From Rhizoclosmatium globosum (Eukaryota > Chytridiomycota > Chytridiomycetes > Chytridiales > Chytriomycetaceae), in NCBI GenBank assembly GCA_002104985.1, contig MCGO01000002.1, positions 558,001-622,000 on the forward strand: a stretch of DNA of 64,000 nucleotides, written 5' to 3'. A program made the translations under genes and the position numbers. Within the stretch, counting starts at the first letter, position 1. Each line of letters opens with the position of its first letter. Below, in pieces: positions 50,682-61,724 of this stretch. The notes beneath the pieces were generated by a model. The model was not told where the DNA came from and did no database searches. It worked only from the letters and a program-made list of their open reading frames with translations.

Positions 50682-55908
<5,227 letters not shown>

Positions 55909-56077
55909 ACAATAAATATTGGGAATTCAGATCTTTTGAAAGAGACAACAGTTTATTGCAATCCTCTCGCGCGCATTATCGCGATCGAGTATTTGACGGT
56001 TTTATCTCAGCCATTGTTCATATCAGCACCCGTTTGCACAGCCGAAAGAGGGCAAAAAGAAAAGGAAGAATATACCA

Positions 56078-57711
56078 CTAGGCTGTAAGAGATTTAACAT
56101 AAAGTCTGGCACGATCACGAATGATTGCGGAATCCAAACGATAAATACTATCAAACAAAGCGGTACGGAAACTGGCAGGCCCAAGAACGACATTGTCACC
56201 AGAAGCATTCTTCAAATCCACTGCCATTTCCGCTGCGATACCCATTGCAACTACTCCAGATGCAGCAGCAATCAAGTAGTCGCCCTCAGCAGCTCCCGCA
56301 AAGCACCCAATTAATGCAGTCGCAGAACACCCAGTTCCAGTCAAAAGACCAAGATGAGAGTTTCCATTTTCACAACACAAGACAGTTTCCCCATCCGAAA
56401 TGTAATCTTTGACGCCCGTAATACAGACAACAGTACCGTATTGTTTCGCGACTTGTCTTGCAACAGTGGCAGGGTCGTTCAACTCTCCGACACTGTCAGC
56501 TCCACGACTTGAGGCTTCAAGTGTTCCGTACAGATATCCAATTTCACCCGCATTTCCCTTGATGATGGCGATTTTATGAGCGGCAAGTAATTCTGCAACA
56601 GCGTTGCGACGGAATGTTGTGAATCCACAACCAATAGGATCCAATACAATCGGAGTGTTCCTCTCATTTGCCTTTGTCGCGGCTTTATGGAAGCTTGCGA
56701 TTCTGAAAGTATCGAGGGTTCCTTGATATTGAAGGCGTATTAGTTGGTTTCGTTGGTCACTAGAAATTTGCTTCACCCATGTTCAAAATAAGTGCATCAA
56801 TATGCTGACCGACTTCGTGCACTTCTTCAACTGAATGCGCCATAATAGGAGATCCACCGATATGCAAAATAATGTTCGCAGTCATCTCTTGTACAATCGC
56901 GTTCGTAATGGAATGGACAAAAGGCTTCTTTATACGCACTCTCTCCAATGCTGCCACAACTCTGAAAACAGATGGTAAGGAATAACGATAAATCTCAATC
57001 TTCCAACCTCTCGATAAGTTCATCTTTCGCTGTGTGGGTGTTCAACAGTCCATCAAGCTTTCCCTTCAAAGAAGCTGTAACTTCTTCAGTGTTGGAATGC
57101 TTCATAATCGCGGAAACGACAGCGACTCCTGAAAGACGAAAGCCCCCAGACTCCCTCTCAACGTCCTGCAACATTCCAGCAACGTTATCAGCGTTGATCC
57201 CACCAATAGTAACGATTGGAATCTTGGTATTGACAGCACGAACAGCAGCAACAACCTGACCAACGCCAGAAGGACCCAAGTAGATTGCATTATCTTTGGT
57301 TGTAGTGGGAAACACCACACCTGGAGCGATGTAGTCTGCCCCGCCTTCAACAGCCTGAAGCGCTTGCTCAACAGTCTTGGTAGTGATACCAATAATCTTT
57401 CCTGGCCCTAACAACTTGCGAGCATCCGCCAATGGAATGTCCTCCTGCCCAATGTGCACACCTTCAGCCCCACACGCAAGAGCAATATCGATACGATCGT
57501 TGATGATAAAGGGAACATTGAATTCTTTGCATACAGCGTGGATCTCCCGGGCTCGTGCCAGAAAGTCCTTCGCAATCAGCTTCTTTTCGCGGAGTTGAAC
57601 AATCGTAGCCCCGCCCTGGATCGCCTCTCGCACGGACTGGGCCAGCGTTTTACCCTCAGGCAACACAGAGCTGTCTGTCACCAAGTACAGCGATACGTCG
57701 ACGTTTGGCAT
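56078..57711 (-). CDS. THI6: Bifunctional thiamine-phosphate synthase / hydroxyethylthiazole kinase (THI6)
   Basis: The N-terminal ThiE domain joins HMP-PP and thiazole phosphate into thiamine phosphate (YLVTDSSVLPEG, IVQLREK, FIINDRIDIALACGAEGVHIGQEDIP, GITTKTVEQA, IVTIGGINADN). The C-terminal ThiM domain phosphorylates hydroxyethylthiazole (FVHSITNAIVQEMTANIIL, LILNMGT, PIVLDPIGCG, IKGNAGEI, TGTGCSATALIGCFAG). Introns fall at IER|VVAAL (near 57006-56962) and NMG|TLDT (about 56783-56728). The start is set at MPNVDVSLYLVTD, 57711; the frame is open to another ATG at 57813. It diverges from the MHS transporter, whose mRNA carries a TPP riboswitch. No TPP element was found on this strand upstream of THI6. 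Confidence 0.96.
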
Positions 57712-57811
57712 CGGTGATTTTCGGAGAAATGGAAACAAGTGAGAAGAAGAAATGCGTGGCTTGTCCTTCTCCCCCAAACTTGTCACCAATTGGAAAAAAG
57801 CAAAACCCAAC

Positions 57812-59431
57812 ATGGTTCTCTCGCTTCCCTACATCATCGCTGCTACTTGCGCTGGTACCTTGATTGAATGGTAAGATCTTGTTGTGAATGAATGATGCTT
57901 TGGGTTGGATGTTACTGCCCACCAAATCAATATGGGATCTTGGCAGATCTGGATCTAACCATGTCTGCTTCCATAGGTATGACTTTTATGTCTACCTCTT
58001 CCTTCAATCCACTGTTGCTGCCCAGTTTTACAATGGTTCGTAGCTTGCATCTTTGACATCCCAAGATCCGTTCTTACCTTCAAACATTTACTAACATGTT
58101 TGTTTAAACAGGTACTGAGTCTGCAACCACCATCATTTGGCTTGCCACTTACGCGATTGGATTCATTGTCCGTCCCATTGGAGCCTTACTGTTTGGTTAC
58201 CTTGGTGACATTTACGGACGCAAGGTCACTTTCATGGCTTCCTTGCTCATGATGGGATTAGCCACAACTCTTTGTGGATGCTTGCCAACTAAGGATCAAA
58301 TTGGATCTGCTGCTGGTATCATCTTGATCATCCTTAGAATCTTGCAAGGATTGGCTATTGGAGGCGAGTACGGAGCTGCTGTTGCGTACATTGCCGAGCA
58401 TGCGCCTGCCAATAAGAAGGGAGCGTATACTTGTGTCTTGCAGGTTATGGCGACTGTGAGTCTAATCTTGTCCCCTAACTCCGATAAAGTTCACTAATTT
58501 TATCATTCACCAGTTCGGTCTCTCCTTGGCTTTGGCGTCTTGCCTCATTTTCCGTGCCGTCTTGTCTGCAGGCGATTGGAGCACGTTTGGATGGAGATTC
58601 CCATTCCTCCTCTCCTTCCTCCTGATTGCTATTTCCTTATACGCTCGTTCCAAGCTCTTGGAATCTCCAGTGTTCGCGCAAGCTAAGGAAGACGGTGAAA
58701 TCGCTCCATCGCGCTTCACCAAGTCTGCGTTCAAGCCAGCCAACATCTGGACAATTCTTGTTGCTATCATTGGTACCTGTATGGGTCAAGGTGTTCTCGC
58801 CCAGGTTTCTCAAGCTTATCCACTCACGTTTATTACTGGTTTGGGAGTTCCATTGGTTCCAGCTTACACTATCCTCCTTGTCCCATGTCTCCTCGCGTGC
58901 CCCTTCTTTGCCCTCTTTGGTTACTTGTCCGACAAGTACGGTCGAAAGATCTTCTTGGTTACTGGAGTTACTCTCGCTGCGATTTTGACGTACCCGTGCT
59001 ACCTTGGTATCTATTCTTTCCGTCCATTTGAGAACAACAAGCCATCCTCTCCATACCGTGACGCTTACAGCCCTGCCGGTATGTCTTTCTGCATCTGGAT
59101 TCTCGTGATGTGTGCCGCTATTTCGTATGGTCCACTTGCTGCGTACTTGTCTGAACTCTTCCCAACCAACATTCGTTTCACTGGAACTGCCGCTTGTTAC
59201 CACATTGGTGTTGGAGCTCTTGGTGGTATTACTGGTGTGATTGCTGTTTCCGTTACTTCTGCTACTGGTAACATCTACGGTGGATTGTTCTACCCAATCG
59301 CTGTTTGTTCTGTCTGCGCCGTCTTTGGATTTGTCTTCTTGCCTGAGACCAATGGTCGCAATTTGAATACCATGGAAGATTCCAAGATCCAAGCTGAAAC
59401 TTCCGCCATTCCCGAGAAGTTGGCTGCCTAA
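57812..59431 (+). CDS. MFS transporter of the metabolite:H+ symporter (MHS, ProP/KgtP-like) type; predicted thiamine-related
   Basis: About 12 hydrophobic spans begin with MVLSLPYIIAATCAGTLIEWYDFYVYLFLQSTVAAQFY. The MHS signature is TIIWLATYAIGFIVRPIGALLFGYLGDIYGRK (A-loop GD..GR+) and RILQGLAIGGEYGAAVAYIAEHAP. The second half has GYLSDKYGRK, ISYGPLAAYLSELFPTNIRFTG and FLPETNGR. Three introns, 57871-57976, 58036-58111 and 58456-58513, keep frame, so it is a resident eukaryotic gene. MHS proteins are mainly bacterial, so transfer in the past is possible. A TPP aptamer follows the stop by about 80 nt and THI6 is head to head with it. From this I infer a role in uptake of thiamine or a precursor; the family alone does not tell the substrate. 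Confidence 0.9.
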
Positions 59432-59509
59432 GTCAATGACATGTTCACTTAAATTGTTTCCCCTCTTCAAATTGGCTCCTTCATGTTTCCAATTTCGTTC
59501 ATTTTGTTT

Positions 59510-59654
59510 AGCAAGCGGGTGCCCCATTTTTTGACGTTGTTTCTCTTCTTTTCCTTCTCATTTACTCCTCGTTTCTTTTCTTCCTTCTCCCCAACGTCAG
59601 GCTGAGATCATACCGTTAATACCCGAACATGGTAATGCATGCGAGGGGATTGCT
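59510..59654 (+). promoter_or_regulatory. TPP riboswitch aptamer in the 3' UTR of the MHS transporter
   Basis: The element has the thiamine pyrophosphate aptamer parts in order. P1: AGCAA (59510-59514) pairs with TTGCT (59650-59654). P2: GGGTGCC (59517-59523) faces GGCTGAGA (59600-59607), the conserved pyrimidine-sensing strand. P3: TGACGTTG (59532-59539) is perfectly complementary to CAACGTCA (59592-59599) around a 52-nt pyrimidine-rich loop. P4/P5: ATACC then ACCCGAA, with CATG (59628-59631), loop GTAATG and CATG (59638-59641), then CGAGGGGA. This lines up base for base with the bacterial form ending ACCTGA..TGG-ATAATG-CCAGCG..GGGA. It lies after the transporter stop at 59431 and before AATAAA at 59661, and no other plus-strand gene follows. 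Mechanism (splicing or poly(A) choice) is inferred. Confidence 0.88.
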
Positions 59655-59660
59655 TTTTAT

Positions 59661-59666
59661 AATAAA
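59661..59666 (+). terminator. Candidate poly(A) signal AATAAA for the MHS transporter
   Basis: Lies 6 bases after the last paired base of the TPP aptamer, in an AT-rich run. Ligand-dependent folding of the aptamer could affect its use. The convergent SPT8 stop codon is at 59696-59698. Confidence 0.55.
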
Positions 59667-59695
59667 ATCGATTTACAATCAATAGTCAGTCGATT

Positions 59696-61724
59696 TTAAT
59701 TGTTGGACTTGACACTGTACAACAAACACAGATTGTTTGAATTTCCATCCCACCCACGATTACCAGAGACACTAATGAAATACTTGGAGCTCCAATCCAG
59801 GGCTGTCAAATAGACGACGTAATTAATTGACTATAAACACAGAAGACTAATTCACCCACCCAAAGCTGAAATGGTACCACCATGGTGTCCAGAAATGATA
59901 GAAAATGGAACAAGTGGCTGCAAAGGATCAAACTCATTAAGTGCTCCAGATGGTGCAGCGCCAGCACTGCCATTATCGGCCATGGTTGTGTCCGATGCAG
60001 GTACTGTATAATTAAGATCCCAAAGCCGAATGTTATCATAAGAAGCGCTACACGGGTTTTGCGTTAAAACAGAGAAATGGAAGACATGAGTAATATTTCT
60101 CTACCAAGCAACATGTCGACCATTAGGCATACACTGCACAGCTGTGACAGGCCCTGAATCGCGTGGCAGCCGGAAATTCTGGATTATTCTGCCTTCTGCG
60201 TAGTCCCACTCGTCCACTAAAATTCAACTGTAAGGTCAAACGAGCAAGTTAAAAAATCAAAACAATACCTGATCCATTTCTTCGCCCGATGTATACACGT
60301 TTACCATCAGCGCTCCAACAAGCCTAAGACAACCAAAAAATCAATTTTAAAAAGGGTAAACGAATTTTAGATAAAAAGGCCAATACCGATATTCCCCATG
60401 GTGGAACTCCATTTTCACATCCAACAGACTTGACGATCCCAGCAGGATCTCGATGATCGACAACACTACCCTTGCCGTCAAAACTGAGAACAAAGGCAAT
60501 GTCCTCTACGCCTCCGTTTCCAGAATAATAGGGTTCTTCGGCATACCCTCCGTCCGGCTTGAACTTAATAGCCGTGATGTGTGTGTTGAGTGGCGCAAAT
60601 TCACGTACAATCGCGCCAGTCTCCAGATCCCATCGCTGAGTTTTGTGTGTAAGAGAAACACTCTTTTCTCGAGTAACTTACAATATATTTACGATCCCAA
60701 GAGCCACTCATGACGCTTCTTTCGTCTCCTGCTAATGTCAAAACCGATACGGGTTTGTCGTGGCGTCTGAGAACGTGTTGACACTGTATAGTGAGGATAT
60801 GTCAGTTACTGTCCAGCATTGTTAATATAGGCCTCTTCCACTTACAACACCTTCATCGTGTCTCACTGTATAGAGGTTGATATTTCCGCTCTGAAATGTG
60901 AAATCAGAGACAGTATAGACATAACATGAGGCCACAAAACAGCTTAATACCTCACATCCAGCGAGAAGAAAATGAGCTTCTGATTGCACAGCTATGCAAT
61001 AAATCTGAGAAATTTTGGCAGGCGACGGGATTGTTGCCGTAGCCTCTGGAGTCAGTCCCGTAATTGACGGTTGAGCATCTGATGTTCACATTGGTTACCG
61101 CGACTATGACTCAAAACGAGCTATCTTGCAACATACCCAGTGGAACTTCCTCAACTTCCCAAGCTGAGACCATTGTTCCCGCCTAATGCCCAACCAGGCA
61201 AACGCGTTTAAAATCAACTCCAAAAAAGGAATCAGCGAAATTACATTTTGAATAGAGTCTACTAGACCATGTCTTTGTGCAGCCGTCAAATTATGGTCTC
61301 CATTAATCGACCGCATAAAGTCGTATTTACGAATATATCCGTCTTCACCGCCCGTGAACATCCATTTCTGATGGTTATAGTATGAGTCTATTTTGGTTAT
61401 AGTGATATAGCGGTCCTGACCATGTTCTTTGTGGTAGCAACGCAGTGAATCGGGCATGGATGGAGTGCCAAGGTCTGCCAAACTATGTGAGACCTTCTTC
61501 GAGTAGGTACAATTAGGTATTTACCGATGGTATTATTTCGTAGTAAGCTGCCTTTGATGCTTCCACTCTGACTGTGCAAAGAGTCAGTTGGGAACCACAC
61601 ACATTTGGCAATACTCACGCTGTTCCCCAATAGGTGCATTAGGCTTCTGCGGCCCTGAATCGCCCATATCCACAATCTCCTCTTCCTCCTCGTCCATCAA
61701 CATGGCATCAGAAGTCCCTTGCAT
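59696..61724 (-). CDS. SPT8: SAGA complex subunit SPT8 (WD40 repeat protein)
   Basis: SPT8 binds TBP within SAGA and tunes transcription initiation. The acidic start (MQGTSDAMLMDEEEEEIVDMGD) leads to EASKAAYYEIIPS and then the family hallmark KWMFTGGEDGYIRKYDFMRSINGDHNLTAAQRHGLVDSIQNAGTMVSAWEVEEVPL. Further WD40 blades follow, with YDNIRLWDLNY and FSIISGHHGGTISALALDWSSKYFISVSGNRGWDG near the C-terminus. It ends VKSNN. The family is confined to fungi and close relatives, which supports the taxonomic call. Many introns of 45-60 nt split it; no frame break was forced. The start is 28 bp from the divergent UXS ATG. Confidence 0.92.

Follow-up and report, generated by a model that had tools for sequence, protein, structure and literature searches.

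The closest described relatives of the elements analysed here come from other fungi, diatoms, algae, plants and synthetic designs. In a survey of TPP riboswitches in fungi, the types described (I-IV) are located in 5' UTRs or introns and act through splicing where tested, and NMT1 and THI4 are named as the sole biosynthesis targets; Postia eIF5B provides the only 3' UTR cases in its available part, and the word "Chytridiomycota" is absent from the main text (PMC5882874). A second survey gives mostly 5' UTR positions (PMC11683625), and the switch of Candida DUR31 is intronic (PMC5997356). The diatom aptamers of one study all lie in 3' UTRs, and the one in Phaeodactylum THIC has a P1 that overlaps AACAAA, a predicted poly(A) signal; the authors proposed an effect on polyadenylation and did not find it, with 3' RACE, a reporter and aptamer mutation giving no thiamine response (PMC9544697). 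In human cells, polyadenylation has been brought under the control of synthetic riboswitches made from tetracycline and guanine aptamers, with AAUAAA placed in the P1 stem of an aptamer in the 3' UTR (PMC10353319).

Our literature search, which left most subscription papers outside, found no report of TPP control in Chytridiomycota. Moldovan and colleagues are said to have carried out a further comparative study of fungal TPP riboswitches. The element considered here lies in the window, by which we mean the whole 64-kb stretch of Rhizoclosmatium globosum DNA that was analysed. A sequence-only reading had described it as a plus-strand TPP aptamer with helices P1-P5 and a 52-nt pyrimidine-rich P3 loop, located in the 3' UTR of a transporter gene of a zoosporic fungus, and all of this was borne out. 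The coordinates check, and in a scan of 55500-60200 with an E-value threshold the Rfam model RF00059 matches 59505-59666 over its full length (model positions 1-105) with 51.5 bits and an E-value of 2.6e-8. The first base of P1 lies 78 nt past the TAA that ends at 59431, AATAAA follows 6 nt beyond P1, 49 of the 52 loop nucleotides (59540-59591) are pyrimidines, and the transporter is identical to an entry from Rhizoclosmatium, a genus of Chytriomycetaceae (Chytridiales, Chytridiomycota). The same reading had asked for an RF00059 hit above threshold; the match is there, but its score stays below the Rfam gathering score of 54.3, and a default Rfam scan of the whole 64-kb window listed nothing, so that the refuting condition of that reading, applied to the letter, would come into force. 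We attribute the shortfall to the long P3 insert that the model must bridge, an attribution weakened by a second aptamer of the window that the sequence-only reading had not reported, which likewise stays slightly under 54.3 although it lacks a long insert (55945-56043, minus strand, 53.7 bits, E-value 7.4e-9). The features of the window are:

55952..55957, minus strand: AATAAA of the second aptamer, its first A being the last base of P1
55957..56038, minus strand: second TPP aptamer, in the 3' UTR of the THI6-type gene (RF00059 match 55945-56043)
56078..57711, minus strand: THI6-type gene with introns; its hydroxyethylthiazole kinase domain is PF02110
57812..59431, plus strand: MFS transporter gene, 459 aa, exons 57812-57870, 57977-58035, 58112-58455 and 58514-59431
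59510..59654, plus strand: TPP aptamer P1-P5, in the 3' UTR of the putative MHS-type transporter gene (RF00059 match 59505-59666)
59510-59514 / 59650-59654, plus strand: P1 of this aptamer
59532..59599, plus strand: P3 extension with an 8-bp stem (59532-59539 / 59592-59599), identical in the other allele
59540-59591, plus strand: P3 loop, 52 nt, pyrimidine-rich, identical in the other allele
59602-59607, 59633-59636 and 59641-59643, plus strand: CTGAGA, TAAT of L5 and GCG of this aptamer
59661..59666, plus strand: AATAAA, 6 nt past P1 of this aptamer

The transporter matches PF00083 and PF07690, and its provisional assignment as MHS-type follows its best NCBIfam match, TIGR00883 (metabolite/H+ symporter), which lies under that model's cut-off. 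With the four exons joined, the protein matches an entry named for Rhizoclosmatium sp. JEL0117 at 100% identity from end to end, and the next named relatives among the best 120 of 1120 matches are from other chytrids. Outside the chytrids, the nearest named relatives in the same best 120 of 1120, where some better rows are unnamed, are bacterial MHS-family proteins (Oscillochloris, 46%), which suggests that the gene may have been acquired from bacteria. Besides its kinase domain, the neighbouring THI6-type gene has a part that appears, by reading of the sequence, to be thiamine-phosphate synthase-like. The two genes are divergent, with start codons at 57711 (minus strand) and 57812 (plus strand) about 100 bp apart, and each has an aptamer in its 3' UTR.

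The single case first described is genuine and belongs to a wider pattern: the genome contains 15 copies of the aptamer, distributed over six gene families. A pattern scan for CTGAGA, a gap and TAATRCNNGCG gave 17 matches, compared with one for a reversed control, and two of these (C13 and C298) were set aside because the matched stretch lacks an ACCG that is present in the other 15. The ligand-contact motifs CUGAGA, UAAU in L5 and GCG in J4/5 are thus found in 15/15 copies, partly by construction of the pattern. Independently of the pattern, the RF00059 model also detects 11 of the 15; in the genome scan with this model, in which 49 of 1822 candidates were scored, five of the 11 matches exceed the gathering score, the aptamer of the window transporter not being among them, and further weak or unusual copies may exist beyond the 49. 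Families, copies and the offset of AATAAA from the end of P1 are:

NMT1/THI5: C4, C77, C289; AATAAA at +6
THI4: C102, C262, C412; AATAAA at +4
First THI6-type: C112 (this window), C218; AATAAA at -1, overlapping the last base of P1
Second THI6-type (synthase and kinase domains): C35, C5, C312; AATAAA at -9, inside P1
MHS-type transporter: C112 (this window), C218; AATAAA at +6
SSF-type transporter: C35, C312; AATAAA at +10

Pfam families were assigned to the upstream gene of one copy per family. No Pfam family was found in the pieces of the SSF-type transporter, which is named after relatives that carry PF00474; it shares 96% identity with a partial protein of R. hyalinum (67% of the query aligned) and 77% with a JEL0117 protein (96% aligned). 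More distant named relatives of this transporter are from green algae (Coccomyxa, Volvox, Edaphochlamys). Both transporter aptamers, MHS and SSF, have long pyrimidine-rich P3 loops, and the P3 arms are short in the four biosynthesis families. Neighbouring copies recur together, so that C112 and C218 appear to be the two haplotypes of one locus, as do C35 and C312; both haplotypes have apparently been kept in the assembly, which is useful for comparing alleles. Genome scans with PF01946, PF09084 and PF02110 gave 11, 9 and 7 matches, of which the strong loci are three THI4, three NMT1 and five kinase-domain loci, with an aptamer at 11/11. PF01946 also has five weak partial matches elsewhere (24-32 bits, four above the cut-off).

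Between families, helices of the aptamer are preserved through two-sided changes. In P1, compared across five families with the second THI6 family left out and longer helices cut to five pairs, all 25 of 25 pairs are standard, three of five positions show two-sided change, and among 119 permutations of the 3' strands one performs equally well. P5 has 24/24 pairs and two two-sided positions, with 11 of 719 permutations as good, and P4 has 20/24 pairs and two such positions, with 23 of 719 as good; P2, at 23/24 pairs and zero two-sided positions, is uninformative (719 of 719 as good). The E-values, the placement of 15/15 copies behind thiamine genes or the two transporter genes, and the two-sided changes in P1, P4 and P5 together exclude a chance match, and the element behind the MHS-type transporter is almost certainly a TPP aptamer located after the stop codon.

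Placement relative to the stop codon and to AATAAA is regular. P1 starts 38-79 nt past the stop codon in 15/15 copies, and the stretch between the two has no AATAAA, ATTAAA or AATAAT in any of them. An AATAAA lies at the end of P1 (-9 to +10) in all 15, either within it, overlapping it or 4-10 nt beyond; further such hexamers occur 58-91 nt on in the NMT1 copy C4 and the THI4 copies. The sequence-only reading had mentioned the AATAAA near its aptamer, an observation that recurs in every family, but had made no use of it in its interpretation. As background, we took 95 aptamer-free ends of stop-to-stop ORFs of at least 150 aa, many of which may be internal exons; over the first 200 nt behind these ends, AATAAA has a frequency of about 0.0011 per base (averaged from four 50-nt bins), compared with 0.0005 overall. 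A 20-nt window would thus be expected to contain AATAAA in about 0.02 cases per family, compared with 6/6 families observed, which is far from chance even though the families may share ancestry and are not fully independent. Because 19 of the 95 background ends have AATAAA in their first 300 nt and its antisense frequency over the first 200 nt (about 0.0012 per base) is as high as the sense rate, AATAAA is not established as the general signal of this genome.

Conservation extends across the aptamer and the hexamer together. We counted differences over seven pairs of alleles and paralogues; THI4 and one of the three second THI6 copies are not part of this set, and its three comparisons among NMT1 copies depend on one another. 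Of the 790 positions aligned in the block that runs from P1 to AATAAA, 3 differ; the counts are 31 of 376 for the 3' UTR ahead of P1, 28 of 216 for the 30 nt past AATAAA and 145 of 1088 for the 150 nt after those. Those first 30 nt are nearly unchanged in the NMT1 and first THI6 pairs (0-1 of 30) and differ at 12/33, 7/30 and 7/33 positions in the second THI6, MHS and SSF pairs, respectively.

To see how the hexamer is presented, local and longer stretches were folded with and without the aptamer imposed. AAUAAA is paired within P1 at four of its six bases in the second THI6 family (two of these being mostly paired anyway), at one base in the first THI6 family and at none in the other four families. 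In local folds the aptamer pairs only the first AAUAAA base of the first THI6 family, and the hexamer is mostly unpaired beside P1 in the NMT1, THI4, MHS and SSF families. Longer folds of the first THI6 family have the opposite sign, in that AAUAAA is paired in the free RNA and becomes partly accessible once the aptamer is imposed. For the window copy of the MHS-type transporter, a downstream hairpin pairs AATAAA in either state of the long fold; as a mask of the hexamer this hairpin was rejected, its second arm being changed in the other allele. The idea that base pairing masks AATAAA in every family was likewise discarded, with no support outside the two THI6-type families. Since no single base-pairing switch fits all six families, we favour, by inference, adjacency and steric hindrance.

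In the reading we prefer, and to which we give roughly even odds (about 0.5), the element is a TPP riboswitch that influences how the 3' end is formed at the neighbouring AATAAA. When TPP is plentiful, its binding would stabilise the aptamer and P1, and the folded RNA would hinder cleavage and polyadenylation at the adjoining AAUAAA, if that is the hexamer used: the second THI6 family would bury it within P1, and in the remaining families the hindrance would be steric. The improperly ended transcript would then decay, and thiamine synthesis and uptake would drop; when TPP is scarce, P1 would open and the message would mature. Both the sign and the site of this effect are ones that we infer. 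The reading is favoured by the presence of AATAAA at P1 in 6/6 families, the virtually invariant P1-to-AATAAA block and the lack of CTAAY between stop codon and AATAAA in 15/15 copies, and also by the fact that engineered riboswitches with AAUAAA in P1 work in human cells (PMC10353319). It is weakened by the mostly unpaired AAUAAA of four families and the opposite sign of the long first THI6 folds, and further by the undemonstrated status of AATAAA as a general signal and by the diatom THIC gene that gave no thiamine response (PMC9544697). The fuller claim, that a natural metabolite riboswitch gates polyadenylation directly at AAUAAA, free of splicing, as a common 3' UTR module of chytrid thiamine-synthesis genes and two transporter genes, is more tentative, its odds falling somewhat short of even.

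The sequence-only reading had instead suggested that TPP could decide splicing of the 3' UTR, naming a CAG acceptor-like site and a GTAATG donor-like site inside the aptamer. In such a plant-like arrangement, TPP would control the splicing of a 3' UTR intron and thereby remove or keep the poly(A) site, and precedent exists both in plant THIC, which uses a 3' UTR intron mechanism (PMC10226581), and in the splicing action of the fungal switches tested (PMC5882874). The copies, when compared, lend the suggestion no support. The proposed CAG abuts CTGAGA and the proposed GTAATG lies within TAATRC, both of them core motifs in 15/15 copies, so that the two sites coincide with the aptamer core and were rejected as special evidence for splicing, CTAAY also being missing. 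Motifs were tested from the stop codon to 150 nt past AATAAA. The branch-point motif CTAAY is found between stop codon and AATAAA in 0/15 copies and past AATAAA only in two copies of the MHS-type transporter family; by reading of the sequence, it is present in 3/3 introns of the window transporter. What speaks for splicing is a looser CTRAY ahead of the hexamer in 2/15 copies, both of the first THI6 family, and a donor-like GTRAG confined to the SSF family, where GTGAGC lies within P1 (2/15 copies); none of the donor-like motifs tested recurs across the families. Nor does the P3 loop read as a spliceosomal intron: its first letters are GTTTCT and its stem is followed by a CAG, yet CTAAY is missing (by reading of the sequence). 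By motif only, the intron and alternative splice sites of splicing-type TPP riboswitches are not seen here, and splicing control of the 3' UTR is the less likely reading, one that we regard as improbable.

A slightly better prospect, albeit still an unlikely one, is that the aptamer is retained in the mature 3' UTR, where TPP would alter mRNA stability or translation, and that AATAAA is near merely because these 3' UTRs are short. This reading accounts equally well for the placement behind the stop codon and for aptamer conservation, and intronless THI5-like genes of Micromonas and Aureococcus have 3' UTR aptamers, the Micromonas riboswitch genes being reported high under thiamine depletion (PMC4260697); yet AATAAA keeps close to P1 in six families, even overlapping it or falling inside it, and linker and hexamer are conserved like the aptamer while the next 30 nt differ at 28/216. 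That the element is a conserved one that binds, or formerly bound, TPP with no effect on these genes under ordinary conditions has a precedent in the diatom (PMC9544697). Such inertness is hard to square with an aptamer at all strong THI4 (3/3), NMT1 (3/3) and kinase-domain (5/5) loci, and with an aptamer that stays almost invariant while its flanks change, although diatom conservation was no guarantee of function; we hold it to be marginally more doubtful than splicing. The aptamers might finally be leaders of the next downstream gene rather than 3' UTRs of the upstream one, as same-strand ORFs of at least 110 aa downstream in the second THI6 and SSF families and short ORFs on both strands behind the MHS-type transporter would allow. 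This is very improbable: opposite-strand ORFs run towards the aptamer behind NMT1 (452 codons) and first THI6 (756 codons), the sole ORF found behind THI4 is on the opposite strand, and the upstream neighbour is a thiamine gene in four of six families. Because of these opposite-strand downstream ORFs, the 3' UTR reading is firmest for NMT1, first THI6 and THI4.

Should action on 3' end formation at AATAAA prove correct, the chytrid copies would represent a natural riboswitch that acts directly on a poly(A) signal, an arrangement known until now from engineered designs and suggested, but not confirmed, for a diatom; it would also bring TPP control to chytrids in a layout unlike the 5' and intronic switches of other fungi. 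With six families sharing the same arrangement in one organism, the polyadenylation idea is directly testable. The two transporters, one of them with bacterial relatives, are candidate importers of thiamine or its precursors.

Compared with the switches of other fungi (Neurospora NMT1 and NCU01977, Candida DUR31), the aptamer is the same, and NMT1, THI4 and transporter targets are common to both; theirs are located in 5' UTRs or introns, whereas the chytrid copies follow the stop codon in six families, THI6-type genes included. Plant THIC shares with them a 3' UTR aptamer near the poly(A) site but works through a 3' UTR intron (PMC10226581), in contrast to chytrid copies with neither CTAAY ahead of AATAAA nor, among those tested, a common donor motif. 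The diatom and Micromonas elements likewise lie in 3' UTRs with no evident intron (PMC9544697, PMC4260697); these belong to other lineages, and a canonical AATAAA sits at P1 in the six chytrid families, whereas the diatom gene tested is unresponsive. In the synthetic polyadenylation riboswitches, the arrangement of AAUAAA in P1 is the one seen in the second THI6 family (PMC10353319); those are engineered and operate in human cells, and in five of the six chytrid families the hexamer lies beside P1 or overlaps it by one base.
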